This document shows positions 1 through 28,631 of a DNA stretch of 38,876 nt, piece by piece (position 1 is the first letter of the stretch; each line of letters starts with the position of its first letter). Below the pieces are notes generated by a model. It had not been told where the DNA came from, made no database searches, and was given only the letters and a program-made list of their open reading frames with translations. This stretch comes from Minisyncoccota bacterium (lineage in GTDB: Bacteria; Patescibacteriota; Microgenomatia; UBA1400; PJMF01): contig JAACWQ010000008.1 in assembly GCA_009991965.1 (NCBI GenBank), forward strand, positions 1 to 38,876. The letters are read 5' to 3'. The translations under genes and the position numbers were made by a program.

Positions 1-249
1 AATGAGATACATGAGAATCAACAGAGCCGCAATCAACATAACGAAAGTCAGAACTGAGGTGATAAGCGTGCCGATGTCGGGAGCAATACCTTTGCCAAGT
101 TTGACGTTTGTATCAACCCCGGTAACAGCTGGAGCCTCGTTACTAACTTTTTGTGCAAACACACTACTTACCATTCCAAAAGCAGAAACATACGCGATTG
201 TACTTGCAGCACCTACCTTGGTTGCAATTTTTGAAAATGAATTCGTCAT
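1..249 (-). CDS. Small VirB2/TrbC-like pilin precursor, 3' end cut by window edge
   Basis: The reading frame opens at ATG 249 and runs without a stop off the left edge (83 codons seen). Residues 1-30 look like a Sec signal peptide with cleavage after a VFA motif, then a short polar stretch and the start of a hydrophobic helix (about 65-83). This is the layout of the two-helix VirB2/TrbC-type proteins that follow upstream. It has an AAAGGA Shine-Dalgarno about 6 bases before ATG and its own extended -10 promoter, unlike most genes here. The C-terminal half, where the conserved inter-helix motif would lie, is missing from the window. Pilin-like family is inferred from the neighbours and layout; function in a fibre or secretion channel is inference. 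Confidence 0.75.
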   Translation of the reverse strand, partial: MTNSFSKIATKVGAASTIAYVSAFGMVSSVFAQKVSNEAPAVTGVDTNVKLGKGIAPDIGTLITSVLTFVMLIAALLILMYLI

Positions 250-298
250 GATGTTCCTTTTACTACTATGTAGTACGTGCTTTTACCTCTATCAGAAG

Positions 299-328
299 AT
301 TATAGCACTCCTGCATTTTTTGATGCAA
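299..328 (-). promoter_or_regulatory. Promoter of the first pilin gene (extended -10)
   Basis: On the minus strand TTGCAT (328-323) lies 18 bases before TGC-TATAAT (-10 at 304-299), an extended -10 promoter. The predicted leader of about 45 bases holds a perfect TACTAC-ATA-GTAGTA hairpin (about 262-276) just before the AAAGGA ribosome site of the gene starting at 249. This leader-plus-Shine-Dalgarno design contrasts with the leaderless starts common elsewhere in the window. Confidence 0.6.
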
Positions 329-339
329 TTACCAGTCTA

Positions 340-702
340 TTAAACAAACGTTAATACTTCAATACCAAGAACAAGTTGGAGGACTTTGAAAATAGCTACA
401 ATTGACGCCAAAACAATGATACCGATGATTGAGGTAGTAATGCGATTGCGAGCTTCTTCGAGTTTGCCCTTATCTCCGCCAGCGGTAACCCAACCAATGG
501 CGCCCCAGAGGAAATAAATAAATACGGCTAGCGCAGCAACAGTCATCATGATATTCAAAATGTGCGCCACAAGATTTCCCAGGCCAACTTCTGGCTGCAA
601 AATATTACTGATCTCGTTTCTACCAGGCAGTTGCTGTGTTTTTGCTTGGTTAAACAGGTCGATATTTGCTTGGGCGAGTCTAGTGGAGAGTTTGTGTAGC
701 AT
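340..702 (-). CDS. Small VirB2/TrbC-like pilin protein
   Basis: 120 residues from ATG 702; a longer in-frame start at 783 would overlap the upstream gene deeply and lacks support. The N-terminus (MLHKLSTRLAQ) resembles that of the paralogue starting at 1482, which supports this start. There are two hydrophobic helices (about 50-73 and 90-115) separated by the polar loop GWVTAGGDKGKLEEARNRI, the motif shared by these paralogues and placed as in VirB2/TrbC pilins between the two membrane helices. It has no clear cleavable signal peptide. Fourth-from-edge layout is tight: 4 bases from the upstream gene stop, so probably cotranscribed. Role in a pilus or membrane channel is inference. Confidence 0.8.
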   Translation of the reverse strand: MLHKLSTRLAQANIDLFNQAKTQQLPGRNEISNILQPEVGLGNLVAHILNIMMTVAALAVFIYFLWGAIGWVTAGGDKGKLEEARNRITTSIIGIIVLASIVAIFKVLQLVLGIEVLTFV

Positions 703-706
703 ATGA

Positions 707-1102
707 TTACTTTGTGGCCGATGGAAATACCAATTGGAGCAACTGAAACTCTGCGCCAAAAAACAGCTTGCTGATGTAGGCAATCAAGGTAAAAGAGCTG
801 ACGAGAACAAACAAACCGATGGCAGATTGGGTCATGCGATTTCTGGCTGATTCAAGCTTGCCCTTATCTCCACCAGAAGTAACCCACTCAATCCCACCTT
901 GCAAAAACATAATAATCACTGCTAGGCCACCGATCATAATGATAGCTCTCCAGAGAATGACAAAATATACGGCAAAAGTTGCGCCACTGTTGGCTGCGGT
1001 AGCGTCTGCGCCAAGTTTACCAACAGCAGGATTGGTTACTGCAGCAAAAGTCTGGGTAGCAGAGGCAGAGAAAAGAACGAGTGCTGTGAGTAGTTTTTTC
1101 AT
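707..1102 (-). CDS. Small VirB2/TrbC-like pilin precursor with signal peptide
   Basis: 131 residues. A clear signal peptide (residues 1-20, Lys-Lys start, cleavage near TFA-A) is followed by a short extracytoplasmic part and two hydrophobic helices (about 45-68 and 90-112) flanking the loop EWVTSGGDKGKLESARNRM. That loop is nearly identical to those of the neighbouring paralogues. The start codon overlaps the stop of the gene upstream by one base (TAATG), indicating translational coupling in the pilin operon. VirB2/TrbC-like structure is well supported; whether it polymerises is unknown. Confidence 0.85.
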   Translation of the reverse strand: MKKLLTALVLFSASATQTFAAVTNPAVGKLGADATAANSGATFAVYFVILWRAIIMIGGLAVIIMFLQGGIEWVTSGGDKGKLESARNRMTQSAIGLFVLVSSFTLIAYISKLFFGAEFQLLQLVFPSATK

Positions 1103-1482
1103 TATTTGATGTTGTTTATAAGCACGCTCAGGCTTTGTGCTGGATTGAGCAGATCAAGTCCAACAATCGAGCCAACCACACCGATGATGGCATAAGCAGC
1201 AATGAGGACTACCAAACCGAGCACGCCTTGAATCATGCTGGTGCGAGCTTTTTCGATTTTGCCTTTGTCACCGCCTGCAGTTACCCAGTTGATACCGGCA
1301 ATGAGAAAAATAACGATAAAAAACAGGCCGCCAAAAACAGTCATGACCCCAAACGCATGAGATATCAGTAGTTCTAGGCTATTGAGTGCGCCAGCTTGCG
1401 TGTTGGCACCAGTAGTAAATTTGTTAGCAACTGGAGCTTCGAATGAACCAAATTGTGCGAGTCTGGTAAATGTGGATAGCAT
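1102..1482 (-). CDS. Small VirB2/TrbC-like pilin protein
   Basis: 126 residues from ATG 1482. The longest frame begins at 1500, but a TATAAT (1497-1492) sits inside that extension 9 bases before ATG 1482, and the N-terminus MLSTFTRLAQ then matches the paralogue at 702 (MLHKLSTRLAQ). Two hydrophobic helices (about 45-68 and 87-108) flank the loop NWVTAGGDKGKIEKARTSM. It sits in the middle of the pilin array with a 1-base overlap to the next gene. The protein lacks an obvious cleavage site, so it may be inserted as a two-helix membrane protein. Function in an envelope fibre or channel is inferred. Confidence 0.82.
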   Translation of the reverse strand: MLSTFTRLAQFGSFEAPVANKFTTGANTQAGALNSLELLISHAFGVMTVFGGLFFIVIFLIAGINWVTAGGDKGKIEKARTSMIQGVLGLVVLIAAYAIIGVVGSIVGLDLLNPAQSLSVLINNIK

Positions 1483-1491
1483 GGCAAAATT

Positions 1492-1497
1492 ATTATA
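1492..1497 (-). promoter_or_regulatory. Possible internal -10 element in the pilin operon
   Basis: TATAAT on the minus strand ends 9 bases before ATG 1482. It could start a transcript with a leader of only about 2-3 bases, giving the downstream pilin genes a second promoter. No clear -35 was seen. Confidence 0.35.
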
Positions 1498-1506
1498 CAT
1501 CTTTTA

Positions 1507-2055
1507 TTACATGCTCAGGGCTGAGTAAAGATCGGGCGAGAGAATAAAGCCAGCATCACCAAAGAAAAGCAGGCCGATGATTGCCGCCAGTGCATAGGAG
1601 CCAACTATGATTGCTAGCCCAATAATGATCATAGTAAATTTGTCTTTTGCTTTTTGCATGACGTCGGAACTACCAGATTCACTGATGTACATGTAGGCCG
1701 TGGTGACAATGTTAAAAATAACAAAGAGTCCGGCCACGATGGTAATCAGGCGAATAATGCGCGAGAGAAAAATAACCAGGCCGATGCCGACAGATTCACC
1801 ATCTCTAATTCTGGCAAGATTGTTTAGGTTTGTAATTGATTTTGGTGGAGTTACGCCGCCTATTACAGATTGGCCAACAGCATCGCCACATGATTCACTG
1901 CTTTTATAAATCAGATTCGACTGTGTGTCTTTGACACAAACCCTACCATCAACACATTCACCAACAGTGGTGCAAGCAGCAGCCGAGACTCTTTGAACAG
2001 AGACAAGAAATAAAAATCCAAAAATACCGCAGATATATAGCAATGACTTCATCAT
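1507..2055 (-). CDS. Secreted pilin-like membrane protein with small Cys domain
   Basis: 182 residues; ATGs at 2055 and 2052 are both possible. A signal peptide (about 1-25, cleavage near VSA-A) precedes a domain of about 60 residues with four cysteines (two near 28-34, one near 43, one near 55), suited to two disulfides outside the cell. A linker and two hydrophobic helices follow (about 100-125 and 140-168), with the polar loop ESGSSDVMQKAKDKFTM in the position of the GGDKGK loop of its paralogues. The ending FFGDAGFILSPDLYS resembles the end of the next gene (FFGDAGYILNPTLQP), so the two are probably recent duplicates. The overlap with the gene upstream indicates coupling. Confidence 0.8.
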   Translation of the reverse strand: MMKSLLYICGIFGFLFLVSVQRVSAAACTTVGECVDGRVCVKDTQSNLIYKSSESCGDAVGQSVIGGVTPPKSITNLNNLARIRDGESVGIGLVIFLSRIIRLITIVAGLFVIFNIVTTAYMYISESGSSDVMQKAKDKFTMIIIGLAIIVGSYALAAIIGLLFFGDAGFILSPDLYSALSM

Positions 2056-2408
2056 AATCCTGGTACTGGTTGCAACGTTGGATTTAAAATATACCCTGCA
2101 TCGCCAAAAAACACCAAGCCAACAATTGCTACTATTGTGTACAGACTGATGAGTAAAACCAAACCAATGACTGTGTTGGTCAAAGATTGAGCTGTTTTTT
2201 GGTAGGTGCCCGGATCACCTTTGCTAGAGAAGTAAGAGAACGCAGCCAAGAAAATATTGATCATAGCCCAAACCCCAGCGGCAATGAGGGCAAGTTTTAC
2301 CATTACAGAGATAAAAAAGATAATGCCGATATCAGCGCCAGAAGCGGCCTGATATTTGTCTACCCCAGGAGGAATTTCGATAGTGCCGATGCCAAGATCA
2401 TTTGCCAT
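2052..2408 (-). CDS. Small pilin-like two-helix membrane protein
   Basis: 118 residues with no cleavable signal. A short N-terminal polar part is followed by two hydrophobic helices (about 27-57 and 75-105). The loop YFSSKGDPGTYQKTAQSL is the GDP variant of the GGDKGK loop seen in its neighbours. The C-terminus FFGDAGYILNPTL parallels the downstream paralogue at 1507-2055. It sits 3 bases from the upstream gene's stop and overlaps the downstream start (ATGA). VirB2/TrbC-like topology is seen in the sequence; assembly into a fibre is inference. Confidence 0.78.
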   Translation of the reverse strand: MANDLGIGTIEIPPGVDKYQAASGADIGIIFFISVMVKLALIAAGVWAMINIFLAAFSYFSSKGDPGTYQKTAQSLTNTVIGLVLLISLYTIVAIVGLVFFGDAGYILNPTLQPVPGL

Positions 2409-2411
2409 ACG

Positions 2412-2774
2412 TTACAGTCCTACGTCCACGCCAGTCAAAAGCTGGACGATTTGTACAATCCAATAGGCGCTAAAAAGAAGCGCGAGACCAACGAGTACTG
2501 AGGTAAAGATTTTTTTGCCATCTTCTACGCCTTTTTTGCCTGCCGATACAAATTTGAAGCCGGCGAAAAAAAGCATGACGAATAAAATAACGCCGCTCAC
2601 AACAAACAAATTTTTGACAATCAAGTTGACCAAAAAAGCTGGCTCGGAGTAGACATCTTTGATCGCACTATCATTGCTGAGGCGCAGACAGTTGCCCAGA
2701 TCAATCCCTTCGGTACCTGCACCAGGGATACAATCGGTTACTGCGTAAACTTTGGTGACTAACCAATCAAGCAT
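2412..2774 (-). CDS. Small pilin-like two-helix membrane protein, first gene of array
   Basis: 120 residues. A weakly hydrophobic N-terminus (MLDWLVTKVYAV) may act as a short signal, then two cysteines (about residues 15 and 29) that could form one disulfide outside the membrane. Two helices (about 48-72 and 88-112) flank the loop KFVSAGKKGVEDGKKIFTS, a charged variant of the family loop. The gene heads the minus-strand array and is only 26 bases from the divergent sigma factor gene, whose product might control it. Topology is well supported; the regulatory link is inference from position. Confidence 0.78.
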   Translation of the reverse strand: MLDWLVTKVYAVTDCIPGAGTEGIDLGNCLRLSNDSAIKDVYSEPAFLVNLIVKNLFVVSGVILFVMLFFAGFKFVSAGKKGVEDGKKIFTSVLVGLALLFSAYWIVQIVQLLTGVDVGL

Positions 2775-2800: not shown

Positions 2801-3349
2801 ATGTCTAGTGAGAAGCACTTGATCGATCAACTCCGTCGCGGTGAGCCTGCTGCGGTGCGCGAGTGGTTCCAAACATATCATGATCGGTTGTTGCGTTTTG
2901 TTATCGCACGCCTGGAAATGCAAGAAGATGCCGAAGAATTGGTGCAAGAAACCTTCATCCATGCGCTCAAACAATTGCCGCTTTTTCGTGGCTCATCGAC
3001 CCTCTGGACTTGGTTAGTAGCGATTGCCAGACATGAAATTGCCGACTATTATCGAAAAAAATATGCCAAAAAAGCTCTCCAAACAGTGCCACTTGGCGAG
3101 CTTTTCTTGACTTACCCAACAGAAAGTACCGAGCACGTCTCACAGCAAGTTGCAGAGTGTCTCGCCAGGATGAGCTCCCGCTCGGTAGAGCTTTTGCACC
3201 TAAAATATGTAGACAAATTGCAAATAAAAGATATGGCCCAGCGCTTGGGAAAATCTGGTAAGGCGATGGAGTCAGAGCTTTTTCGGGCCAGAAATGAGTT
3301 TCGCGCAGCATATGCAGAAGTGGAAATAGAAATAGAAACAACTGTATGA
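2801..3349 (+). CDS. ECF-type RNA polymerase sigma factor
   Basis: 182 residues, usual for a group 4 (ECF) sigma factor. Region 2 (about 22-88) contains DAEELVQETFIHAL, the core-binding and -10 melting helix, then the STLWTWLVAIARHEIADYYRKK segment. A short linker leads to region 4 (about 118-172) with a helix-turn-helix (LQIKDMAQRLGKS) that reads -35 elements. It overlaps the next gene by four bases (ATGA), and the third gene starts by another GTGA overlap, so the three form one unit. Membrane partners encoded after ECF sigmas are often anti-sigma factors; here that is only a positional inference. Its promoter predicts translation from a leaderless mRNA. Confidence 0.92.
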   Translation: MSSEKHLIDQLRRGEPAAVREWFQTYHDRLLRFVIARLEMQEDAEELVQETFIHALKQLPLFRGSSTLWTWLVAIARHEIADYYRKKYAKKALQTVPLGELFLTYPTESTEHVSQQVAECLARMSSRSVELLHLKYVDKLQIKDMAQRLGKSGKAMESELFRARNEFRAAYAEVEIEIETTV

Positions 3350-3552
3350 AAAGTCAGCAAGAGTTTTTGCAATTATTAGAAAGAGAGGCGGCGCTACAGG
3401 CCAAACTCGAGACAAAGAAAATCTTGCCCAGCCAACTTGATGACATCACCGCTTTTATCGGCAGACACACTTGGCAAGTGTTGGCTAGCACATCGTGTGT
3501 CACTGCAATTTCGCTTGAGTTGGCAAAAATCTGGATAGGAGGCGGCAAGTGA
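3346..3552 (+). CDS. Small unknown protein in the sigma factor operon
   Basis: 68 residues, ATG overlapping the sigma gene stop (ATGA). The first half is charged and probably helical (LQLLEREAALQAKLETKK), the second contains a moderately hydrophobic helix (about 45-63). I recognise no family. Size, charge and coupling to an ECF sigma gene would suit an anti-sigma or adaptor role, but no anti-sigma motif (such as HXXXCXXC) is present. Real-gene status rests on the perfect overlap at both ends and absence of a better frame. Confidence 0.65.
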   Translation: MKSQQEFLQLLEREAALQAKLETKKILPSQLDDITAFIGRHTWQVLASTSCVTAISLELAKIWIGGGK

Positions 3553-3887
3553 CTTCCTGGCAATTTATTACTTCCTTTTTGTATTCGTGTGGGAAAATTA
3601 CACTTGGGTTGTTGTTGCATCCATACCAGACCATGCAGTCTTTGATACAAGAAAAGGCTTTCTTATGGTTAACATTTTTGCCATCTGCTGTCTTTGTTTT
3701 GGCAAAAGTCATTTGGTTTTTTATCCTTGTACCTCTGGTGAGATATGTATTTTCTTGCCATATAAGTAGTTTTTTTGGTTGCGCACTTATTCCGCTGTTT
3801 GCTAATTGGTTGGTTCTTTTTTGTGTCTATTGGCAAATTTTGTTGATGTATCTTGCTCTACGCTTTTTTATTTCTTTTCGCGACTAG
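3549..3887 (+). CDS. Small multi-helix membrane protein in the sigma factor operon
   Basis: 112 residues starting at GTG 3549, overlapping the previous stop (GTGA). It has three or so hydrophobic helices (about 38-60, 63-82, 86-108) after an amphipathic N-terminus with LLLHPYQTMQSL. The PYQTM stretch before the helices vaguely recalls the N-terminal part of Yip1-type membrane proteins, but at this length I would not assign the family. As the last gene of an ECF sigma operon it may sense the envelope or tether the middle protein. Function unknown. Confidence 0.65.
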   Translation: MTSWQFITSFLYSCGKITLGLLLHPYQTMQSLIQEKAFLWLTFLPSAVFVLAKVIWFFILVPLVRYVFSCHISSFFGCALIPLFANWLVLFCVYWQILLMYLALRFFISFRD

Positions 3888-6744: not shown

Positions 6745-8265
6745 TTAGAGTACCGAGATTCCAAAAATTACTTCGACAATTTGCATGAGCCAGTACGAGG
6801 CAAACAGCAGTAAAAAACCGACGATTGCCGCGGTCGCGCGTTGCTTGCCAGCATCGAGTGATTTTTGGTTGGTGGCGCCGGTGAGGATTTCGAAACCAGC
6901 CCAAGAAAGCATGGCAAATAGGATGAGCCCGGCAATAGGAAAGGCGAACTGCAAAAATCTGGTCACAATCCCGCCAGGAGTGGAAAGACGAACTGCTTGC
7001 GAGCTGCCCTTGAGAGGATTGAGTGCTTCAAAGTCTGCGACGGTTGGTCCTTGTGTGAGGCCGCCATCTAGATTGGAGTCATTTCCACCACCCTCGTCTC
7101 CACCTCCTTGGTTGTCACCTCCGCCAGTAGTTGGGGGGTATAGTGCATTGCAAGAAGTAGTTCCTCCGGGTTGTAAACAACATTTGAGCGCATTATTGCT
7201 GCAAATTTGGAAATTTGTGTTGTTGGTAGTACCCACTTTGCATAGACTTTGTCCGTTGGAAAATACTACATCTCCACATTTGTCTGCAATAGGTACTGGC
7301 GCGGTGCACTGAGCACTAGTTCTACAGCATTCACCTTGGACTAGTGGGCATGAGCTATATTGACCGCTCGAGAGAAGTTCGGTACCAATTTTACAAACTG
7401 TATTTGAACCTATTGCTTGAGTTGTCCCACAGTTTGATACAGGTGTAAGCACTGGAGTAGGCGTTGGTGTCGGAGTAGGTGTGGTTAGAGTGCAAGAGCT
7501 TGGCAAAGCATCGGCGCTGCAACACGTTGTGCTATTTGTAGCACAAGCTTCTGGGTTAGTAATATATTTGCCAACCTCATCTCGGCAAGCCGTACCTTGC
7601 CATGTGCCACAACCAGAAATTGGCGCTGACGGACAAACATTGTTTGTTACGCTGAGAAAATTTTTAGCACAACAATCATATTGACTATTCGCATTTGCCG
7701 AACCATCACAGAGATCAAGTTGAGTGCTTGAATACCTTGTGCCGTCAATCGAAACACACTCAGATGTCCTATCGTCGTAATTTCCACAGTAATGCTCTGG
7801 ATTATTTTGATCAACTGTTTCAGCTTGGACCGAATATGATCCAATGTCGCAAAGTTTGTCGAACCATGCTGTTCTTTTAGCAAAAAAAGTCGCGTCGAAT
7901 GTACGTGGGTCGGTGGCTGAAAAGGCAGATAGAGCATTCGGATCATTGATAATAAATGTGGCCGTATATCTTTGAGTAGAGCCAATTCTGCTCGCTACAA
8001 TTTCATCAGTATAAATAGTGCTTTTGCCCTCAGTAGCCAGTCCAAGATAGTATGCAGAGTATGGATTTTTGGAATCAAAAGTAATCGAAATTTGATGAGA
8101 TGTAGCACCAAAATTGAGACTTTGATTAAGTCCATTAATAGAAAGGTTAGAAACTCCTGCGCCACAGTCTGCGATAGTTTGCTGTGCAAATACTGGAGTA
8201 AGCTGTGTGACCAATAAAAACATCAACAGAAATACGGTGAGCGATGCTCTGATTAGTTTTTTCAT
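6745..8265 (-). CDS. Large Cys-rich secreted protein with C-terminal pilin-like module
   Basis: 506 residues. Signal peptide 1-27 (cleavage near VFA-Q), then a beta-rich domain of about 120 residues. A long cysteine-rich part follows with about 26 cysteines, several as CC pairs, split by a TPTPTPTPTP linker near 263-275 and a Gly-rich linker near 375-400. The last 90 residues hold two hydrophobic helices around the loop GATNQKSLDAGKQRATA, the layout of the small VirB2/TrbC-like proteins at 1-2774. It overlaps the upstream gene by four bases (ATGA). Likely an extracellular protein anchored by, or assembled through, its pilin module. The Cys part resembles no family I can name. Confidence 0.8.
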   Translation of the reverse strand: MKKLIRASLTVFLLMFLLVTQLTPVFAQQTIADCGAGVSNLSINGLNQSLNFGATSHQISITFDSKNPYSAYYLGLATEGKSTIYTDEIVASRIGSTQRYTATFIINDPNALSAFSATDPRTFDATFFAKRTAWFDKLCDIGSYSVQAETVDQNNPEHYCGNYDDRTSECVSIDGTRYSSTQLDLCDGSANANSQYDCCAKNFLSVTNNVCPSAPISGCGTWQGTACRDEVGKYITNPEACATNSTTCCSADALPSSCTLTTPTPTPTPTPVLTPVSNCGTTQAIGSNTVCKIGTELLSSGQYSSCPLVQGECCRTSAQCTAPVPIADKCGDVVFSNGQSLCKVGTTNNTNFQICSNNALKCCLQPGGTTSCNALYPPTTGGGDNQGGGDEGGGNDSNLDGGLTQGPTVADFEALNPLKGSSQAVRLSTPGGIVTRFLQFAFPIAGLILFAMLSWAGFEILTGATNQKSLDAGKQRATAAIVGFLLLFASYWLMQIVEVIFGISVL

Positions 8266-9491
8266 GGCGTTCCAAACCCTGGTATTCTGAGCACGGTGTA
8301 GCCCATAAATTGCAAAATGGTGACTGAGAAAATCACAAAAATCAGACCAATGATAGCATTGGTGATCATTTCTTTGGCTTGACCAGTGCGCTTAGGATCG
8401 CCTTGTGAGGTGGTTAGGATAAAGCCACCGGCCAGCGTCATGATGAGAGAAACTCCCCCCCCAATGCCAAGACCCAGGGTTACTAGTCGCTGAATAATAG
8501 CGGTTGGGCTGCGCTTAATACAGCCTATGGCGGTCCAGATGCCGGCTTGGTTTTCGTCACCACCCTCACCCTCACTTGCGCATGTGTTGCATTCTGCTTG
8601 TAAATCTTTGTCTGTGATCTGAGTACAGAGTTCAAACATTGCTCCTACAACCTCATCAGAGCGAGGAGATGCTTCTGGTTCATCAATTAGGCAAGTATTG
8701 TCACAGTCAAGAGAGACACGAAATGATTTTTCACACATTACTGGTTTTCCAATTGACGTAACGCTGTTGCCTGGATACACACGAATAGTATGGGTTCCCG
8801 AGCTCGACACCTTGTGTGTAGTTGAGGCTGACCCAGCGCCATCTGTTGTCGTCACCTCATCATCTCCGCGACCATCGATTCTTATGGTAACTTTTTCGTT
8901 TGTGTAAAGTTGGTTGCCCTTGCGAATATTTTTTACAATTACAGTCATGTCATCACTAGAACTTTTAGCTCTATCGATACAACTATTGCTATCGGCAACG
9001 TTGTTATAAAAACATGCCTGTCCATTTCTTTCTTGTTTGATAGTTGTGATTTCACAGTTTCCTTTTGCTGTAACTGAATAATTCCAGAGAACACAGTGTT
9101 TTTTTAAGGTCCTAAAGTCTCCATTGAGGATGAGCTCATGTTTTTTATTCCCAGGAGTTTCTGGAAAAATAGTTGAATCGTTTATTACAAAATGCACGCT
9201 CCCAGCCGAGTTGGTTTGTTCTTCTGCGAGTAACTTGAGGCCCCAATAATTGCCTTGTTGCTCGCGGAAAAGTATTTTGTATGTTGAGTTTGGCACTAAG
9301 CCATTGAGGATGAAATCAAATGTATTGGTATCACCTAGAACAAACTCATGTTTTAGTGAGCCGGACATTGTAGTCCAATCAGAACAGCTGTCTGCAACAT
9401 CTGTTGCATCCAACGCCCAAACCCCCTTCGGCGCCAGACCAAAAACAACAAAAAACACGAAACTTGTGAGCAGAATTTTAGAAAATCGCAT
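8262..9491 (-). CDS. Secreted protein with Ig-like part and C-terminal pilin-like module
   Basis: 409 residues from ATG 9491; an upstream in-frame ATG at 9500 lies at the edge of the predicted -10 and is less likely. Signal peptide 1-26 (cleavage near VWA-L). A beta-rich ectodomain includes a stretch like a Big/Ig fold near 190-260 (RIDGRGDDEVTTTDGAG...), followed by a Cys cluster. At the C-terminus, the sequence IWTAIGCIKRSPTAIIQRL leads into two helices around ILTTSQGDPKRTGQAKEMI, a GDP-type pilin loop that I associate with Microgenomates membrane proteins. Same topology as the next gene, with which it forms an operon. Probably part of an envelope fibre or adhesin. Confidence 0.8.
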   Translation of the reverse strand: MRFSKILLTSFVFFVVFGLAPKGVWALDATDVADSCSDWTTMSGSLKHEFVLGDTNTFDFILNGLVPNSTYKILFREQQGNYWGLKLLAEEQTNSAGSVHFVINDSTIFPETPGNKKHELILNGDFRTLKKHCVLWNYSVTAKGNCEITTIKQERNGQACFYNNVADSNSCIDRAKSSSDDMTVIVKNIRKGNQLYTNEKVTIRIDGRGDDEVTTTDGAGSASTTHKVSSSGTHTIRVYPGNSVTSIGKPVMCEKSFRVSLDCDNTCLIDEPEASPRSDEVVGAMFELCTQITDKDLQAECNTCASEGEGGDENQAGIWTAIGCIKRSPTAIIQRLVTLGLGIGGGVSLIMTLAGGFILTTSQGDPKRTGQAKEMITNAIIGLIFVIFSVTILQFMGYTVLRIPGFGTP

Positions 9492-9501
9492 TGATCTCAT
9501 T

Positions 9502-9540
9502 ATTGTACCCCATCCCAAGGCAGAACGCATTTGCTACACT
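9502..9540. promoter_or_regulatory. Divergent promoters for pilin-fusion operon and SpoIID gene
   Basis: Plus strand: extended -10 TGC-TACACT (9532-9540) ends 8 bases before ATG 9549. Minus strand: TACAAT (9507-9502) ends 10 bases before ATG 9491. Both predict transcripts with almost no leader. No convincing -35 for either. Confidence 0.5.
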
Positions 9541-9548
9541 ACTAGCTA

Positions 9549-11231
9549 ATGTCCTCGTATATCCGTTTTGCCGTGCTTGCTAGTATTTTGTGTGCTTTTG
9601 CCGTATTTGTGGTTTCGCGTGGTTCGTTGGTGCAAGCGGATGAATATCAGGAACTGGAGCAGCAAATAAATGAGATCAAGAGGGATTTGCAGCTTTCTCA
9701 AGATGCAACCACGCCGCTTGAGAGTGAAGTAAAGAATCTTGACAGCAGAATTGCTGCGGCCCGAGCTGGGATTGTACGGGCAAAGCAAGAGGTGTCAGAT
9801 CTTGAGACCGACATTAGTGACCGTGAGGTAGAGCTAGCGCTTCAGTATGAGATTTTCCTCGAGCGTGTACGCTCGCAGTACAAAAAATCGCGCGCACTCA
9901 ATCCACTTCTGATTTATCTAGCAGGCAAAGACGCAGCCAGTGTGACGAAGGATTTGGCGTATCAATCGTCGGTCAAAGCGAGAGATGACAAATTAATCCA
10001 AGGACTTGAGACAGTGATCTCGAGTCTCGAAGCAGACACGATTACTTTAGAGAAAAAACAAACGCAGCTCGCTGCGCTCGAAGCACAACTCGATGAACAA
10101 GCAGCGTTTTTTCGCGGAGAAATTTTGAAAGCAAAAGATTATCAAAAAGAACTCAGTGGCAAGATTGCAGATCTTTCGGCGAAACAGCAAGCCATCTTGA
10201 GTTCTAGATCAGGGAGTTTTACGGCGAGTATTGGAGACAGTGAATTGGCAGATGATTTCAACGCATCTATCAAGGGGTTTCGTGAATCTGCGCCATCGGG
10301 CTACTTTGGTGTTTTCTCCTTTGGAGCGTACACTCATCGCAAGGGCATGAGTCAGTATGGCGCCAGAGGCAGGGCACAAAATGGACAAAATTATAAGCAA
10401 ATTTTGCAAGCGTACTACGGCAAAGAGCCAGTGGAAAAAGACACAGGCGGAAATATTCGAGTAAGTGGGCAAGGTGAGTTGAACTTTGAAGAGCAATACC
10501 TCTGGGGGATTGCTGAGATGCCGTCGACTTGGCACGCAGAAGCACTCAAGGCCCAGGCTGTGGCGGCAAGAACGTATGCCTATCGTTACAAAGTAGAGGG
10601 CAAGGAAATCTGCACAACCGAAGCTTGTCAGGTTTTTTCCAAATCAAAATCGAACAATCCGCCAGAAGCCTGGAAACAAGCTGTGGCAGATACTCGCGGT
10701 CAGGTGCTTGAGGATGTCGTGACGTTTTATGCGTCTACTCATGGTGCATTCACCACTACTGCAGGTTGGGATACAACCGATAGGTCGGGTGGAGGAAATT
10801 TTGTCGACAAGTCATTCGAAAAGCTTGGTGGTTCGCCTTGGCTGTACAAGGCTTGGTACACCGAAGGTTATAGTTCTAGCAGCGATAAGTGTGGTCGCGG
10901 CAATCCTTGGCTTTCGCCAGAAGAATTGGCAGATATTATCAACGCAGCGCGCTATCGCGATGATCGGGTGACTCCAGTCACAACCTCTTGTTGGGGTGGC
11001 AATCCGTATTCACATGAGGAGCTGCGCCAAAAAGCCAATGGGCCTTCTCGAGTTACTGGCGTTTCAGTGATCCAGGGCAATGGAACAACCAACGAAGTGG
11101 TCTTTCAGACAGATATTGGTGAGATTCGTCTCTCTGGTTCTGAGTTTAAAACTGCCTTTAACGTTCGTGCACCTGGAAGATTGTCGATTCCGCAAAAAGG
11201 TTTTGCCTTTTTTAATATTGAGCGGAAGTAG
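9549..11231 (+). CDS. SpoIID-like peptidoglycan lytic protein with coiled-coil
   Basis: 560 residues. Signal anchor or signal peptide 1-31 (SLVQA-D). A long coiled coil (about 32-225, rich in heptads such as VKNLDSRIAAARAGIVRAK) precedes a SpoIID domain (about 250-480): HRKGMSQYGARGRAQNG, then YLWGIAEMPSTWHAEALKAQAVAARTYAY with the glutamate of AEMP that matches the catalytic residue of SpoIID lytic transglycosylases, then FYASTHGAFTTTA. It would cut glycan strands outside the membrane. Many bacteria without sporulation carry SpoIID relatives. Divergent from two pilin-fusion proteins, it may open the wall for their export; that link is inference. Confidence 0.88.
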   Translation: MSSYIRFAVLASILCAFAVFVVSRGSLVQADEYQELEQQINEIKRDLQLSQDATTPLESEVKNLDSRIAAARAGIVRAKQEVSDLETDISDREVELALQYEIFLERVRSQYKKSRALNPLLIYLAGKDAASVTKDLAYQSSVKARDDKLIQGLETVISSLEADTITLEKKQTQLAALEAQLDEQAAFFRGEILKAKDYQKELSGKIADLSAKQQAILSSRSGSFTASIGDSELADDFNASIKGFRESAPSGYFGVFSFGAYTHRKGMSQYGARGRAQNGQNYKQILQAYYGKEPVEKDTGGNIRVSGQGELNFEEQYLWGIAEMPSTWHAEALKAQAVAARTYAYRYKVEGKEICTTEACQVFSKSKSNNPPEAWKQAVADTRGQVLEDVVTFYASTHGAFTTTAGWDTTDRSGGGNFVDKSFEKLGGSPWLYKAWYTEGYSSSSDKCGRGNPWLSPEELADIINAARYRDDRVTPVTTSCWGGNPYSHEELRQKANGPSRVTGVSVIQGNGTTNEVVFQTDIGEIRLSGSEFKTAFNVRAPGRLSIPQKGFAFFNIERK

Positions 11232-11267: not shown

Positions 11268-11642
11268 ATGTACGCTGTGGTCGTGAAAGAGAAAAAGTAT
11301 AAAATTATCTATTTCCAACCAGCCAATAGAAGTCCAATTCAAGACTTTATTGCAAAACAACAAAAATATGTTCGGGCTAAGATTTACAGGTGTTTAGATT
11401 TAGTAGAACAGTATGGATCAGATACGGGCATGCCGTTTGTGAAAAAGATTGACAGCGAGTTGTTTGAGTTGCGTATTCGAGGCTCGGTTGAGATACGATT
11501 TTTGTTCGCGGTAAGGAAAGACGTTGCAGTTATGTTGCATGGGTTTAAAAAGAAAACCCAAAAAATACCACTCAAAGAACTACAACTGGCAAAGACTAGA
11601 TTGAAAAAATATAGCATATATGTTATAAAACAGTATGCCTAA
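11268..11642 (+). CDS. HigB/Gp49-type (RelE superfamily) toxin
   Basis: 124 residues from ATG 11268; a GTG at 11283 is in frame, 6 bases after a possible TACGCT -10, and would start the protein at the family's usual KYKIIYF beginning. Family signs: KIIYFQPANRSPIQDFI at the start, GMPFVKKIDSELFELRI in the middle, and VAVMLHGFKKKTQKIPLKEL, the core of Gp49/HigB-like toxins that cleave mRNA on ribosomes. The next gene, overlapping by 8 bases, encodes an XRE-type antitoxin. Toxin-first order is the HigBA order. Plausible and intact; activity untested. Confidence 0.85.
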   Translation: MYAVVVKEKKYKIIYFQPANRSPIQDFIAKQQKYVRAKIYRCLDLVEQYGSDTGMPFVKKIDSELFELRIRGSVEIRFLFAVRKDVAVMLHGFKKKTQKIPLKELQLAKTRLKKYSIYVIKQYA

Positions 11643-11937
11643 AACTAGTAAGGAAAAACAGTATTTTCGTCCTTGGGAAGAACTTAAAAATGAATTCCTT
11701 TCTGATCCTGAGTGCAAGGCTGAATACGATAAACTTGAGGCGGAATACGAGTTGATCAGTGAATTGATTGGAAAACGATTACAAAGAGGCTTGAGCCAAA
11801 AACAGCTTGCAGAAAAGGTTGGCACCAAGCAATCAGCAATTTCTCGCCTCGAATCAGGCGAAGGCAACCCCTCGTTCAAATTTCTCAAACGCGTCGCGGA
11901 AGGTCTGGACAGCAAACTCAAAATTTCGTTCACCTAA
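11635..11937 (+). CDS. XRE-family HTH antitoxin (HigA-like)
   Basis: 100 residues. N-terminal helical part (1-50) likely contacts the toxin; helix-turn-helix at about 55-85 (LSQKQLAEKVGTKQSAISRLESGEGNPSFKFLKRVA) is a typical XRE fold. It overlaps the toxin stop by 8 bases and its own stop overlaps the recF start by one (TAATG). It would neutralise the HigB-like toxin and repress the operon promoter. The unusual part is that recF continues the operon directly. Confidence 0.85.
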   Translation: MPKTSKEKQYFRPWEELKNEFLSDPECKAEYDKLEAEYELISELIGKRLQRGLSQKQLAEKVGTKQSAISRLESGEGNPSFKFLKRVAEGLDSKLKISFT

Positions 11938-13857: not shown

Positions 13858-14964
13858 ATGTACTTGTTGAGTATGTTTGATCCACAATTTAGTATTTCCA
13901 GTAACATTTTGACCTATATCTCGCGGATTGAGTCGGCCAAGGCGTTGATCGATCACGCGGCACTCGTTCCGAGCTGGGAGGCAAAATTTCGCGACGATGC
14001 CTTTACCCGCACGGTTCATTACGGTACGAAAATTGAAGGCAACGATTTAACGCAAGAACAGGCGCAACAAGTCGTTCGTCTCGAGGACTATGTGGACTCT
14101 GAGGATGTTGCCAAACGTACTGGCATGTTGGCTCGCGAGCGGGATATTCAAGAAGTCATCAACTATCGCAATGTGATCGATTGGATCGATAAACAACGAT
14201 CGCCAAAGTATAACGAGCTGATCACTGAGAAAACGCTCAAAACACTGCACCGTCTGACTGTTTTTAAGTTAATTGAAGAGGGATACACGGGCAGGTTTCG
14301 AGACAAACAAGTAGTGGTTCGCAGTGCAGCGAGTAGTGGCGTTATTTTTCGCCCACCAGTGGCAGTCGAGATCCCCTACCTTATGAACGATTTTTTTGCC
14401 TGGGTGCATTTGCCTGCTGCCCAAGCAGTTCATCCGCTTTTGCGTGCCGCCATCACCCACTACCAATTGGTATATATCCATCCATTTATCGAGGGAAATG
14501 GTCGCACCGCCCGCGCGTTTGCGTCACTCATGCTGTACACCCTGCAGTATGATTTCAAACGATTCTTCTCGCTCGAACAGTACTTTGACAGCAACGTTGA
14601 CGCCTACTACCAAGCGTTGCTTTCAGTCCAACAAAATCCCGGGCAAGATTTGACCTATTGGCTCGAGTACTTTTGTTATGGGGTGGCGATTGAACTCGAA
14701 AAAATTCGTGAGCAAGTACAGCGACTTTCGCGAGATCTGAAGCTCAAAAAACAATTGGGCCGCCAAGTTGCACTCTCGGAGCGACAAATTATTTTACTCG
14801 AGTTATTCCAACAACAGGAATCAATTTCTTCCGACGATGCCCAAAAACTTTTGCCACAAGTGTCTGTCGATACCGTCCTGCGTGATTTCAAAGATCTCAT
14901 CACCAAAGGCATTATTAAGAAACAAGGGGTGACGAAGGGCGTCACCTACAGTCTGTTAGAGTAG
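13858..14964 (+). CDS. Fic-domain protein (predicted AMPylator) with C-terminal winged helix
   Basis: 368 residues from ATG 13858; ATG 13873 (MFDPQF) is an alternative. Active-site motif HPFIEGNGRTAR at about 208-219 is complete (HPFxxGNGRxxR), so nucleotide transfer to a protein target is predicted. The upstream HYGTKIEGND (about 53-62) is an inhibitory-helix motif of the TKIEGN type. A flap segment lies between. The C-terminal part (about 302-365) forms a winged-helix DNA-binding region (LSERQIILLELFQQQ... VSVDTVLRDFKDLITKGII). This is the common class of Fic proteins found across bacteria; target unknown. Between nnrD and the ligase gene, 4 bases from the latter. Confidence 0.9.
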   Translation: MYLLSMFDPQFSISSNILTYISRIESAKALIDHAALVPSWEAKFRDDAFTRTVHYGTKIEGNDLTQEQAQQVVRLEDYVDSEDVAKRTGMLARERDIQEVINYRNVIDWIDKQRSPKYNELITEKTLKTLHRLTVFKLIEEGYTGRFRDKQVVVRSAASSGVIFRPPVAVEIPYLMNDFFAWVHLPAAQAVHPLLRAAITHYQLVYIHPFIEGNGRTARAFASLMLYTLQYDFKRFFSLEQYFDSNVDAYYQALLSVQQNPGQDLTYWLEYFCYGVAIELEKIREQVQRLSRDLKLKKQLGRQVALSERQIILLELFQQQESISSDDAQKLLPQVSVDTVLRDFKDLITKGIIKKQGVTKGVTYSLLE

Positions 14965-14968
14965 GGAC

Positions 14969-16681
14969 ATGCAAACTGCAGAATTCGCCCAGTACTTAGC
15001 CCGTCTCGATAACCTCAGTTCTCGTCTCGACATGACCGCGGTGCTGGCAGAGTTGTACCAGCATTTTTCACCAGATGAACGACAGTATGCCAGCTATCTT
15101 ATACAGGGTTCGCTGGTGCCACAGTATCGTTCGCTCGAGTTCCAACTTTCAAGCAAGATGTTGTTGCGGGCAATTTGTGGCTGTGCGATAGAGTTGGATG
15201 CTACTGAGGTGCTAGCACTATACAAAAAAATTGGCGATATCGGCGTGGTGGCGGAGCAGATTTTGAGTCTGCACCAAACAACCAACACAGATATCAGCAT
15301 TGTAGAACTACATCAAAAATTGGTTTCGATTGCAGAAGAATCTGGGTCGGGTTCTCAGCAGCGCAAACTCGAAAAAACAACCGAGTTGCTGCAATCGGTT
15401 TCTCCGCTCATGGCCAAGTATATTGCGCGCATGATCACCGGTAAACTTCGTTTGGGTTTTGCCACTATGACGATTTTAGATGCACTTTCTTGGGCGCAGA
15501 CGGAGACAAAAGACGAGACAAAATTGCTCGAAGCAGCCTATCAAAAACGCGCAGACGTAGGACAACTCGCTCGCTCGTACTTGGCTGCAGAAGGCGAAAC
15601 AGCCCGCAAAACAGCGCTCGCACAGTACGATGTGTTGTTTAGCACACCGATCGTGCCACAGCTTTGTCAGCGCCTACAGTCTAGCGAAGAAATTATCGCG
15701 AAACTGGGCAAAGTTATCGCTGAACCGAAGTACGACGGATTACGGATTCAGCTGCACATCGACACGAAAAAAAAGCAGGCGTTTGCCTATACGCGCAGTC
15801 TCGAAGACGCTACCCACATGTTTCCAGAACTCATCGAACTTTTTTCACAAATTAACGCGGGGCAAGTGATTCTCGACGCCGAAGCAATTGGCTATGATCC
15901 AAAAACTGGCAAATTACTCCCATTTCAAGAAACTATCACCCGCAAGCGTAAGCACGATATTGCCGAGCAAGCAGGCAGTGTGCCAATTGTTTTTTACATC
16001 TATGATCTACTGTTTATCGATGGTCGCTCGCTCATAACTATGCCGCTGCACGAACGCAAACAGCTACTGCGTCAAACGATTACGGATAGCAAAAGCGGCA
16101 AGTTCACGCCGTATATAACAACCGAAGATGCCGATGAGCTTCGGCAATTTCACGAAGGGCAGCTCGCGCTCGGCCTCGAAGGAGCGGTGGTCAAGAAGGT
16201 TGATGCGCCATATCAAAGTGGCCGCAAAGGTTGGTACTGGGTCAAGATCAAAGAGCTGGCAGGTACGCGCGGCAAGCTGGCCGACACGCTCGATTGCTTA
16301 GTGCTTGGGTACTATGTGGGCAAAGGCAAGCGTACACAGTTTGGCGTTGGCGCATTTCTCGTTGGCGTGATTGATGGTGAAAAAGTCTTGAGTTTGGCAA
16401 AAATCGGCACCGGTCTGACCGACGAACAATTTCGAGAGCTCAAAACGCGTTGTGATGCGCTGGTCGTAGCGTCTCAACCTCCCGAGTATCAAGTTCCCAA
16501 AGAACTTTTTCCCGATACTTGGATTCGGCCTGGTTTGGTTGTTGAGATAGCGGCAGATGAATTAACAAGATCGCCATTACACACAGCTGGTCTTGCCTTG
16601 CGTTTTCCTCGTTTAGTTCGATTTCGCGATGACAAAAAGTGGGAAGATGCAACGAGTTTAGAAGAGCTCAGTTCTTTTTAG
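14969..16681 (+). CDS. ATP-dependent DNA ligase, archaeal/LigB-like
   Basis: 570 residues, the size of archaeal replicative ligases. N-terminal DNA-binding domain (about 1-215, containing LARMITGKLRLGFATMTILDAL-like signature near 150-175). Adenylation domain with the nucleotide-accepting lysine K254 in AEPKYDGLRIQ, the RKRKHDI region, LEGAVVKKVDAPYQSGRKGWYWVKIKE (motifs IV and V), and an OB-fold C-terminus. It seals nicks using ATP. Bacteria rely on NAD-dependent LigA for replication, so this is probably a repair enzyme, unless ligA is missing. A TAGAGT 6 bases before ATG may be a promoter. The 3' end overlaps the convergent hydrolase gene by 14 bases. Confidence 0.93.
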   Translation: MQTAEFAQYLARLDNLSSRLDMTAVLAELYQHFSPDERQYASYLIQGSLVPQYRSLEFQLSSKMLLRAICGCAIELDATEVLALYKKIGDIGVVAEQILSLHQTTNTDISIVELHQKLVSIAEESGSGSQQRKLEKTTELLQSVSPLMAKYIARMITGKLRLGFATMTILDALSWAQTETKDETKLLEAAYQKRADVGQLARSYLAAEGETARKTALAQYDVLFSTPIVPQLCQRLQSSEEIIAKLGKVIAEPKYDGLRIQLHIDTKKKQAFAYTRSLEDATHMFPELIELFSQINAGQVILDAEAIGYDPKTGKLLPFQETITRKRKHDIAEQAGSVPIVFYIYDLLFIDGRSLITMPLHERKQLLRQTITDSKSGKFTPYITTEDADELRQFHEGQLALGLEGAVVKKVDAPYQSGRKGWYWVKIKELAGTRGKLADTLDCLVLGYYVGKGKRTQFGVGAFLVGVIDGEKVLSLAKIGTGLTDEQFRELKTRCDALVVASQPPEYQVPKELFPDTWIRPGLVVEIAADELTRSPLHTAGLALRFPRLVRFRDDKKWEDATSLEELSSF

Positions 16682-25650: not shown

Positions 25651-25697
25651 GTCTTTTCTTGCCCAAACCCCACTCGCTTCACTTCTCTCAAGAATGG

Positions 25698-25703
25698 TAT
25701 GAT
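25698..25703 (+). promoter_or_regulatory. Extended -10 of the TraG-like operon
   Basis: TGG-TATGAT ends 9 bases before ATG 25713, leaving a leader of about 2-3 bases. Confidence 0.45.
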
Positions 25704-25712
25704 GAAATAAGC

Positions 25713-26291
25713 ATGCAATCCCTGCCCACATCTGGATCACGTATCACTACCACGTTGCGTTCGACAAACAATCCGCTCGTACAGCGATTTTTGGGGGGAT
25801 CAACTACATCAAAGACCAGTGAGCAGCTCGCAGTTCTCGAAAATATTCTTGCCGATGTTGCCCAAGTGGTGCCGCAGGTAATTGAGCAAGCAACTGATAC
25901 GCTCAATGTACCGCAGGCGGTTGGGTCAGCTCGCAATCCAGAACTAGCCGCGGCCACAACTCCAGATATTGCGCCGGAATTAGCTGGACACATGCAAGCA
26001 GTCGAGCAAGAACCTTCGCCAGAATTATCCCCAGAGGTTGAGGGTTACTTGGAAGCGGTAGAAAATTATGCAGAGCAACAACCACAAGAAGTGGTGATTG
26101 CAGATGGTACGTTGCCAACCAATCATTCCAATTTGCCAGCCAAAAAGGTTGTTGTTTTACCTATTACAGAAGAAGTAACCAAAGTCGCGCGTCACAAAAA
26201 TCCGACCTGGAGCATCAAGTGGTTAGTCAGTTGGAGTGAGCGCTTGATGAAGATGTTCCAAGGCTCGGTAGTGTATAGGTCACCGGAGTAA
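25713..26291 (+). CDS. Unknown protein encoded before the TraG-like ATPase
   Basis: 192 residues from ATG 25713. No signal peptide or membrane helix. An N-terminal Ser/Thr-rich part, a region of helices rich in Ala, Gln and Glu (about 45-135, with a repeated AVE/EVE pattern such as LAGHMQAVEQE and VEGYLEAVENY), then a basic C-terminus with KNPTWSIKWLVSWSERLMKMF that may touch the membrane. Three bases before the ATPase start, with GGAG serving that gene. It may be an adaptor or substrate-recruiting partner, by position only. No family recognised. Confidence 0.7.
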   Translation: MQSLPTSGSRITTTLRSTNNPLVQRFLGGSTTSKTSEQLAVLENILADVAQVVPQVIEQATDTLNVPQAVGSARNPELAAATTPDIAPELAGHMQAVEQEPSPELSPEVEGYLEAVENYAEQQPQEVVIADGTLPTNHSNLPAKKVVVLPITEEVTKVARHKNPTWSIKWLVSWSERLMKMFQGSVVYRSPE

Positions 26292-26294
26292 AAT

Positions 26295-28631
26295 ATGGGA
26301 TTCGATACATCAGGACTACTTGCCAACGTCATCTCTACCGCAACAGCGATCGGTGTTTCGTTGCTGCTCATTCTTATTTTGTGTGTTTTCGTCTACATGC
26401 TCTTTCAGTGGCTCAAACACCGAAATCGAGAACGCTATGCGCTTGATTTTGTCTCACTGGTGATTCGTGTGCCAAAGGATAACGAGATAAAAATTGATGC
26501 AGCAGAGCAGATGTTTGCAGGTTTATACTCGCTAAAAAAAACTGGCTTTAAACGATTTTTTACTGTCGAAGACTCATTCTCATTTGAAATCGTTGCACTC
26601 AAGGAGAGTATCGCGTTTTATGTGAGCTGCCCCAAGAAAATCCGTGATTTGGTCGAAAAACAGGTGCATGGTGCGTATCCAGAAGCAGATATTAAAGAAG
26701 TTGACGAAATTAATATTTTTAATCAAAAAGGTCGGGTCTCATTTACTTCGCTTAAGCTCGACAAATCAATGTACTTTCCCGTCAAAATGTACAAAGATTT
26801 GCCAACTGATGGTTTATCGCTTTTGACCTCAGCCCTAGCAAAAATGGGCGAAGGAGAAGGTGCGATTGTGCAATTTTTATTGCAACCGATTGGTAATCGT
26901 TGGCATAAGCAAGGTCGCAGTTATGTCTCAAGCCAGAAAAAGCGTGAGGCAGATCCAGAAAAAGCGACCTACGCGCACGATCCAAAGGAAATGGAAGCAA
27001 TTGGTGTCAAAACTGAAAAACCAGGCTTTCGAGTTTCTATTCGCGTGGTTATTTCTTCGCCACAAGAACAATTGGCGGAGTCTCACCTCAACAATATTGC
27101 TGGTAGTTTTGCCCAATATAGTTCTGCCTACAATGGTTTTAAGCGCGCCCGTATCTATCTCAAGCATTTGTTCATGATTGACTTTATATATCGCTATATG
27201 CCGATGTTTAATCGCAATACGTGTGTGCTCAACACAGAAGAACTTGCAACTATTTTTCACCTCCCAAACAAAACAGTCTTAACGCCACATATTAATTGGC
27301 TCAACGCCAAGCACGCGCCAGCGCCACATAACATGCCGCACTCTGGCGTGTACCTTGGCAACTCTAAGTATCGAGGTGAAAACCGCAAAGTATTTATGAA
27401 TCTCGATGATCGCAGGCGTCATACCTACATTATAGGGAAAACTGGTACCGGTAAGTCAGAGTTTCTCAAAGAATTGATTCTGCAAGATATAGAAGCAGGC
27501 CATGGAGTCTGTGCTATCGATCCGCATGGCGAGTTTGTCGAGGATCTACTACAATTGATGCCGCCAGAGCGAGCAGACGACGTGATTTACTTTAATCCGT
27601 CTGATCTGATGCGGCCGATGGGTCTCAATATGATGGAGGCCGACTCGGAGGAACAGCGACATTTTGTGGTCGGTTCGATCATTGGTCTTATGTACAAGTT
27701 GTACGATCCGCATCGTACTGGCATCATAGGACCTCGCTTTGAGCATGCCATTCGCAACGCTATGTTGACGATTATGTACAAAAAAGGCACCACGTTTATA
27801 GAGCTCGTGCGGTGTTTGACCGATGCCAAGTATGTCGAAGAACTCATGCCATATGTCAAAGACCCAGTGGTCAAGCGGTACTGGACTGACCAGATTGCCC
27901 AGACTTCGGACTTTCATAAATCAGAAGTCTTGGACTATATCGTGTCCAAGTTCGGTCGATTTGTAACCAACAAAACAATGCGTAATATCATTGGCCAACC
28001 GTCGAGCGCTTTCAATTTCCGCAAGGCCATGGACGAGAAAAAAATTATTCTTTGCAATCTTTCAAAAGGTATTTTGGGCGAGGAAGACGCGAAGTTTCTC
28101 GGTCTTATTTTAGTGCCAAAAGTGCTCACCGCTGCCATGAGTCGGGCAGATATCCCGATGGAACAGCGCAGTGATTTTTTCCTGTATGTTGATGAGTTTC
28201 AAAATTATGCCACCGAGGATTTTGCCGTTATTCTCTCTGAGGCACGTAAATATCGCCTCAACTTGACAGTTGCAAATCAGTTTGTCGGACAAATTGATGA
28301 AGAGGTCAAAAACGCGGTGTTTGGAAACGTCGGTACTGTTGTTTCTTTCCGCGTTGGTGTGCCTGACGCCAACTTCCTCCAGCACGAGTTTATGCCGACT
28401 TTCAATGAAGGTGACTTGACCAATATCGAAAAATACCATGTTTACATCAAGACAATTGTAAATAATGAACCAGTGCCAGCTTTTAGTATGTCGCTCGCAA
28501 AAGACATGACAGCAGTCAACGCCAGAATGAACCCGAAGCAGGCTGAAATGATTAAAGAGCTTTCAAGATTGAAGTACGGTAGAGACAGAGACATTGTTGA
28601 AGCCGAGATTCAACAGCGAAGTAATTTGTAA
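26295..28631 (+). CDS. TraG/TraD-like type IV secretion ATPase (CPR type)
   Basis: 778 residues. One N-terminal membrane helix (about 13-40) followed by a long non-ATPase region (about 50-370), then the ATPase: Walker A GKTGTGKS (381-388), CAIDPHGEF (about 405-413), Walker B FFLYVDEFQNY (about 625-635), and LTVANQF, the conserved glutamine segment of FtsK/VirD4/TraG-type motors. The DPHGEF and DEFQN motifs match the DUF87/HerA-TraG group, not VirB4 or VirB11. In conjugation systems such proteins pump DNA or protein across the inner membrane. No relaxase, VirB4 or VirB6 genes are in the window, so this may serve natural DNA uptake, or the pilin modules found nearby. GGAG ribosome site. Confidence 0.9.
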   Translation: MGFDTSGLLANVISTATAIGVSLLLILILCVFVYMLFQWLKHRNRERYALDFVSLVIRVPKDNEIKIDAAEQMFAGLYSLKKTGFKRFFTVEDSFSFEIVALKESIAFYVSCPKKIRDLVEKQVHGAYPEADIKEVDEINIFNQKGRVSFTSLKLDKSMYFPVKMYKDLPTDGLSLLTSALAKMGEGEGAIVQFLLQPIGNRWHKQGRSYVSSQKKREADPEKATYAHDPKEMEAIGVKTEKPGFRVSIRVVISSPQEQLAESHLNNIAGSFAQYSSAYNGFKRARIYLKHLFMIDFIYRYMPMFNRNTCVLNTEELATIFHLPNKTVLTPHINWLNAKHAPAPHNMPHSGVYLGNSKYRGENRKVFMNLDDRRRHTYIIGKTGTGKSEFLKELILQDIEAGHGVCAIDPHGEFVEDLLQLMPPERADDVIYFNPSDLMRPMGLNMMEADSEEQRHFVVGSIIGLMYKLYDPHRTGIIGPRFEHAIRNAMLTIMYKKGTTFIELVRCLTDAKYVEELMPYVKDPVVKRYWTDQIAQTSDFHKSEVLDYIVSKFGRFVTNKTMRNIIGQPSSAFNFRKAMDEKKIILCNLSKGILGEEDAKFLGLILVPKVLTAAMSRADIPMEQRSDFFLYVDEFQNYATEDFAVILSEARKYRLNLTVANQFVGQIDEEVKNAVFGNVGTVVSFRVGVPDANFLQHEFMPTFNEGDLTNIEKYHVYIKTIVNNEPVPAFSMSLAKDMTAVNARMNPKQAEMIKELSRLKYGRDRDIVEAEIQQRSNL

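Follow-up and report, generated by a model that had tools for sequence, protein, structure and literature searches.

The stretch of DNA analysed here (the window) is the entire contig JAACWQ010000008.1 (C22; 38,876 nucleotides) of an 854 kb, 26-contig genome of a Minisyncoccota bacterium, and it opens with a row of small genes for type IV secretion system (T4SS) pilins. These genes belong to an ordered series of distinct paralogues of old origin (B-C-D-E-F-I-J, plus extras at the genus level). Two further pilin-domain proteins, X and Y (long in this genome), precede the series, a transglycosylase, a VirB6-like protein and a VirB4 ATPase come after it, and the order is kept class-wide. We give a probability of roughly 60% to the reading that the array supplies the pilins of a chromosomally encoded T4SS in a Microgenomates-like Patescibacterium, as an ordered set of non-redundant subunits split over C22 and a second contig, C7. 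The organism is a tiny member of the candidate phyla radiation and probably depends on a host.

Gene order was compared across 32 pilin arrays, taken from 31 genomes of one order including that of the window (496 array pairs). Pilins were paired as reciprocal best hits by scoring the alignment of their core regions without regard to position, and the hit pairs were then checked for running in the same order; the test is independent of the pilin-type labels, which come from one clustering. Within the order, 6126 comparisons were collinear and 24 were not (99.6%), against 50% in a control with permuted gene order (maximum 53% in 200 permutations). Collinearity was likewise found with one genome per family (799:5), with the first or the second half of the domain alone (701:5 and 652:10, respectively) and, in one family, with the N-terminal extensions alone (1001:37). 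As genome pairs share ancestry, weight was placed on the effect size, the permutation control and the one-per-family repeat and not on a p value. The shared order extended to arrays of other orders in the class (3214:63; 98-99% in the class) and held among those other-order arrays (814:9). Against arrays of other classes the ratio was at the random level (417:431), and this comparison acts as the negative control. A second lineage elsewhere in the phylum, with mostly five-gene arrays, has its own frozen order (583:2) and agrees weakly with the window's order (466:218), in a phylum-level comparison that mixes several classes.

Judged by their sequences, the array members are positional orthologues, each keeping its place and its sequence lineage across families and orders. 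The absence of a conserved array from relatives had been named as a point that would count against an earlier, sequence-only reading of the window; the array is conserved across the order and the class. No published report of positional orthology among such pilins was found in a search that lacked most subscription papers. What is new is the fixed order of the members, the arrays themselves being already known.

The members are old as well as ordered. Mean identity among the types within an array was 27%; the same type was 40-44% identical between genomes, and type I 55%. Types D (35/35), E (29/29), J (31/31) and C with its extra copy (41/41) formed clades in the tree, B nearly did so, and type I nested within F, which on these sequences is probably the youngest split. 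Seven genes were present in 19 of the 32 arrays; arrays departing from this number (6 to 10 genes) mostly had additional copies of type C or I or were cut by a contig end. In the usual layout, five closely packed genes come first, then a gap of ~40-140 bp (most arrays), I, a second gap (many arrays) and J. Copy changes were seen at the I/F position, with one 92% identical pair in genome G001, and only one pilin pair in the 32 arrays was >70% identical. Recent tandem expansion was rejected on the low within-array identity and the age of the clades.

The window holds six complete small open reading frames (ORFs) and a seventh cut at base 1, tightly packed on the minus strand at 1-2774, where neighbours mostly overlap or sit a few bp apart. 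The array's first gene encodes pilin B (2412..2774; 120 aa), which has no GGD loop, and is followed by C (2052..2408; 118 aa), without a clear signal peptide, and c (1507..2055; 182 aa), with four Cys in its N-terminal region. Pilin c is the additional type C copy seen in this genus and is closest in the tree to the third genes of G001 and G002. Types D (1102..1500; 132 aa), E (707..1102; 131 aa, with a Sec-like signal peptide) and F (340..702; 120 aa, ATG at 702) carry a GGDKGK loop. The ORF cut by the contig start (1..249) is the N-terminal part of a type I pilin, at the probable major-pilin position, and its signal-peptide region is similar to that of the type I pilin in a same-genus genome. 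Further along the minus strand lie Y (6745..8265; 506 aa), with a large Cys-rich N-terminal region and a C-terminal pilin domain, and X (8262..9530; 422 aa), with a predicted extracytoplasmic region and a C-terminal pilin domain.

The cut-off of PF18895 (T4SS_pilin; 26.6 bits) was passed by D, E and F (30.2, 28.2 and 29.8 bits, respectively), and its gathering score was also reached by X (40.3 bits) and by the pilin I2 on C7. Pilins C (26.0), B (21.6) and c (weak, 10.7) and protein Y (22.3) fell below it, and the cut type I ORF had no score. A profile built in this analysis from the array gave all six complete pilins 62-84 bits (B 62, C 64, c 62) and Y 68 bits. All 41 type I members matched PF18895 and 6 of the 41 weakly matched PF04956 (TrbC/VirB2); a GG(D/N/S) loop was kept in 98% of them. 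PF04956 had no match in the window's own genome at E <= 0.001 and its cut-off was never reached (best window member 15.8 bits against a curated score of 27.9), and it was rejected as the family. A comparison of one type I pilin with plasmids gave five weak matches, among them a protein whose annotation reads Mbov_0395-family pilin-like conjugal transfer protein. Chance ORFs as an explanation of the array were ruled out by the profile scores, the packing and the conservation.

The sequence-only reading had thus recognised a real row of different pilin-like genes. By profile scores, the family behind its label "VirB2/TrbC-like" is PF18895 and not PF04956. The loop GGDKGKxExARxx, said to be shared by several members, is exact in the genes at 340, 707 and 1102, which is only three of seven, and the "extra Cys" domains are best fitted by the gene at 1507-2055, whose Cys follow a signal-like N-terminus. 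Its "at least seven" paralogues are part of a larger set, which also takes in X, Y and the pilins at the end of C7.

AlphaFold2, run on type F with sequences from the window and L087 only (L087 being a relative described below), predicted a helix hairpin (41-73/78-112) with the GGDK turn between the helices and a predicted local distance difference test (pLDDT) score of ~95 in the helices. The predicted fold agrees with a VirB2-type pilin and is too simple to prove one. A Foldseek search of this generic hairpin against the PDB returned nothing significant, the A. pernix conjugation pilus appearing only at E 5.4, and neither profile nor single-sequence searches for a solved relative gave a credible match. 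The AlphaFold2 model of the 422 aa X (pLDDT 42) was unusable.

The remainder of the locus is found on C7. At its end lie two further pilins, and a third is represented by its C-terminus (GFSSYQDLFLNIVNVSGT, then the stop), on the strand that would continue the gene cut at C22:1; the cut pilin halves are at C22:1 and C7:60075. Downstream on the same strand of C7 are a 1425 aa SLT transglycosylase-domain protein, a 627 aa polytopic VirB6-like protein and a 1427 aa protein, and further on proteins of 342 aa and 328 aa (TrsD-like position), a VirB4-type ATPase (637 aa; P-loop_TraG/AAA_10 domains) and dnaA. Other genes, some on the opposite strand, are interspersed. The 627 aa and 328 aa proteins are in the expected places, kept in relatives, and have no Pfam match; the names VirB6-like and TrsD-like refer to position and topology. 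The relative L087 (Candidatus Microgenomates bacterium, WFTH01000081), the one named relative from which the class name was deduced, carries X-Y-B-C-c-D-E-F-(I-like)-I-I2-J-SLT-VirB6 on one contig, and another genome of the window's genus has its F gene broken at its own contig ends, with halves that fit. From the cut halves, the contiguous L087 locus and this split F gene we infer that C7 adjoins C22 within one pilin locus, in which case the full set would comprise X, Y and no fewer than nine small pilins (~11 in all). The assembly break was probably caused by a near-identical type I duplicate, as in G001 (92% identity).

In three class-level loci (L123, L126 and L127) pilins are joined on one contig with VirB6-like, TrsD-like or VirB4 genes, and in all three VirB4 shares the locus with the pilins; for the genome of the window, the nearness of VirB4 to the pilins depends on the deduced C22-C7 join. 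The earlier picture of an array without a T4SS scaffold is therefore an effect of the contig break, with VirB4, VirB6-like and SLT genes on C7, and a free-standing, non-T4SS array was rejected given the scaffold genes there and in relatives. The statement that the window has no scaffold genes is correct for VirB4 and VirB6 and missed a TrwB/HerA-type ATPase (26295..28631, plus strand; PF01935 and PF10412 over cut-off), possibly a coupling protein away from the T4SS cluster. This 778 aa protein (phrog_5156 match, E 2.6e-100) is preceded by a 210 aa ORF (25659-28631 together) and was not seen linked to the array in relatives. The scanned window genes included no relaxase, in a search that did not extend to the whole genome.

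X precedes Y in relatives wherever both are recognised, and the C-terminal part of X is 53% identical to its L087 counterpart. A SpoIID-domain gene, divergent from X in the window (9549..11231, plus strand; PF08486), is in the same place at most X-Y loci across the class, and its product is a possible cell-wall remodelling partner. An extracytoplasmic function (ECF) sigma factor, divergent from pilin B (2801..3349, plus strand; PF04542, PF07638 and PF08281), was found divergently upstream in 23 of the 30 testable arrays of the order. It may control the array, as a candidate regulator known by linkage only. The sigma factor is followed in the window (2801-3887) by 68 aa and 112 aa ORFs, an arrangement conserved upstream of the array in much of the order, and these ORFs might be anti-sigma or membrane partners.

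Several further observations concern the array and its relatives. The motif TATACTA ends ~5-9 bp before the start codons of B (window 2774) and of I2, J and SLT (L016, 19898, 19399 and 18971), and might represent a -10 box, in which case the leaders would be very short or missing. Four loci in a few relatives (L059, L061, L062 and L113) have a short pilin and then a ~433 aa protein with an N-terminal pilin domain, directly before TrsD-like and VirB4 genes; this pair looks like a second kind of T4SS locus, with two copies in G017. Elsewhere, the window encodes a 765 aa surface-type protein (32735-35032) that has a DUF11 domain and, at its C-terminus, an LPQTG-like motif ahead of a hydrophobic tail, a sequence that suggests anchoring by sortase. 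It also holds a Gp49-like and helix-turn-helix gene pair (11268-11937), laid out as a HigBA/RelE-type toxin-antitoxin module, and a Fic-domain gene followed by an ATP-dependent DNA ligase with three Pfam ligase domains (13858-16681).

Because each position keeps its own lineage, the array is best read as a fixed set, in which each pilin type would be a non-redundant subunit of a heteromeric pilus or channel. The earlier proposal of a hetero-polymer or distinct subunits is thus favoured by positional orthology, its joint-assembly step being a deduction, and interchangeable subunits are disfavoured, since the lineages are kept across families and orders. In type II secretion, the minor pseudopilins GspG to GspK are ordered, non-interchangeable pilin paralogues of one heteromeric structure; they belong to an unrelated protein family and machine, and the comparison is of working principle only. 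More generally, we propose that the pilus or channel of Patescibacterial T4SSs is obligately heteromeric, each lineage having its own frozen set of VirB2-like subunits (seven core pilins with X and Y in this order, five in the other sampled lineage), and is thus a fixed mix and not a single-pilin polymer. This we put forward tentatively, at slightly under even odds.

The pilins would enter the membrane as hairpins with the N- and C-terminus outside, by analogy with VirB2 (general knowledge and PMC9905601), and VirB4 and VirB6 would pull these hairpins from the membrane into a fibre, the charged loop facing the cytoplasm and later the lumen. Type I is the most likely major VirB2-like pilin, since no other type is as conserved and the gap that precedes it possibly holds a promoter of its own. 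B to F and J would serve as minor pilins, as subunits tied to one position, or as parts of a pilus or channel of mixed composition, and the ectodomains of X and Y could sit at the tip or base, touching the host. The genes, their conserved order, the age of the types and the T4SS neighbours are observed, and joint assembly, the fibre and the roles of I, X and Y are proposals built on them.

A number of points weigh against the reading of a T4SS section with non-redundant subunits. The genome pairs in the collinearity test are not independent, and collinearity shows distinct conserved lineages and not joint assembly of their products. The C22-C7 join is deduced in a species whose genome is not closed. 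The tree does not set F cleanly apart from I. Structure prediction yields a hairpin only, with no significant Foldseek match in the PDB and no solved sequence relative, and the X model is too poor for use.

The same conservation would result if the pilins were dedicated but separate, each paralogue serving its own structure or stage of the life cycle, possibly controlled by the linked ECF sigma factor that stands divergently upstream of most testable arrays; the gaps before I and J may then hold separate promoters. We consider this unlikely, as B to F are packed with overlapping or near-overlapping ends, which suggests joint expression, and a single VirB4/VirB6 set was seen with the array. Comparably unlikely is that no pilus is made, as in the earlier suggestion of non-pilus membrane complexes, and that the two-helix proteins stay in the membrane throughout, as a mixed ring or scaffold of the T4SS channel. 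The AlphaFold2 model, a hairpin only and with no significant fold match, would be compatible with this. Several members (e.g. C) do lack an obvious signal peptide, monoderm conjugation systems usually have no pilins (PMC12102498), and the hairpin also resembles ring subunits, for instance subunit c of the F-ATPase, in Foldseek matches below significance. Such a ring fits poorly with PF18895 membership, the VirB2-like hairpin with its positively charged loop, the Sec-like signal peptides of E and I, and a locus that includes a transglycosylase and ectodomain proteins.

Arrays of this kind have been described in 383 Patescibacteria assemblies, with 2-11 VirB2-like pilins of ~25% identity, abundant in Microgenomatia and with the T4SS often near dnaA (Quinonero-Coronel et al. 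2025, PMC12102498). They share with the present array tandem PF18895 pilins of ~25% mutual identity near a VirB4/TrsD/VirB6 T4SS, often near dnaA. Their variability was stressed in that work, whereas position-locked orthologues and the partners X and Y are added here. Antigenic variation or host adaptation was suggested there by analogy. We regard it as improbable that the pilins are alternative surface variants for different hosts or for avoiding recognition, as suggested for Bartonella and Anaplasma: within-array identity is low and copies change at the I/F position (the G001 pair), but positional orthology is near-perfect in the order and class, gene number is near-constant, recent duplicates are scarce and the types are not shuffled. 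The between-genome comparison of the 32 arrays and the class did not show the shuffling, recent duplication or recombination among members that would mark an antigenically variable array. At the level of positions, the frozen sequence order leaves the variation hypothesis strongly disfavoured; fast change at single surface residues would be compatible with this order.

Other systems share part of this design. VirB2/TraA/TrbC and the archaeal CedA1/TedC pilins (PMC9905601) are likewise small, with two hydrophobic helices, a charged turn and VirB4/VirB6 partners; they are described with one pilin, and here PF04956 stays below cut-off and there is no significant structure or sequence match. The VirB2 clusters of Rickettsiales (Ehrlichia, Anaplasma; PMC7789307, PMC3556328) also consist of several divergent (~26%), mostly tandem paralogues, but belong to a diderm T4SS, with 4-5 copies in Ehrlichia. 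In Southlakia epibionticum, a pilin series in the T4SS cluster SEML1_0006-0019 is essential (Wang et al. 2023, PMC10633639) and comprises six pilins (PMC12857230). It resembles the present array as a series of sequence-divergent pilins in a chromosomal T4SS cluster, but lies in another class, and the window's order is not or only weakly collinear with the sampled other-class genomes, so one-to-one counterparts among its genes were not established. For this phylum, the premise of a single pilin per conjugation system, from which the sequence-only reading set out, is outdated (PMC12102498, PMC12857230, PMC10633639).

The T4SS of these epibionts is essential in the sole species tested, S. epibionticum, and its role there has been called completely unknown (PMC11665869). 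If the pilins are frozen and non-redundant, the idea of variation between hosts is probably wrong, and the question would become how one machine uses many pilins.

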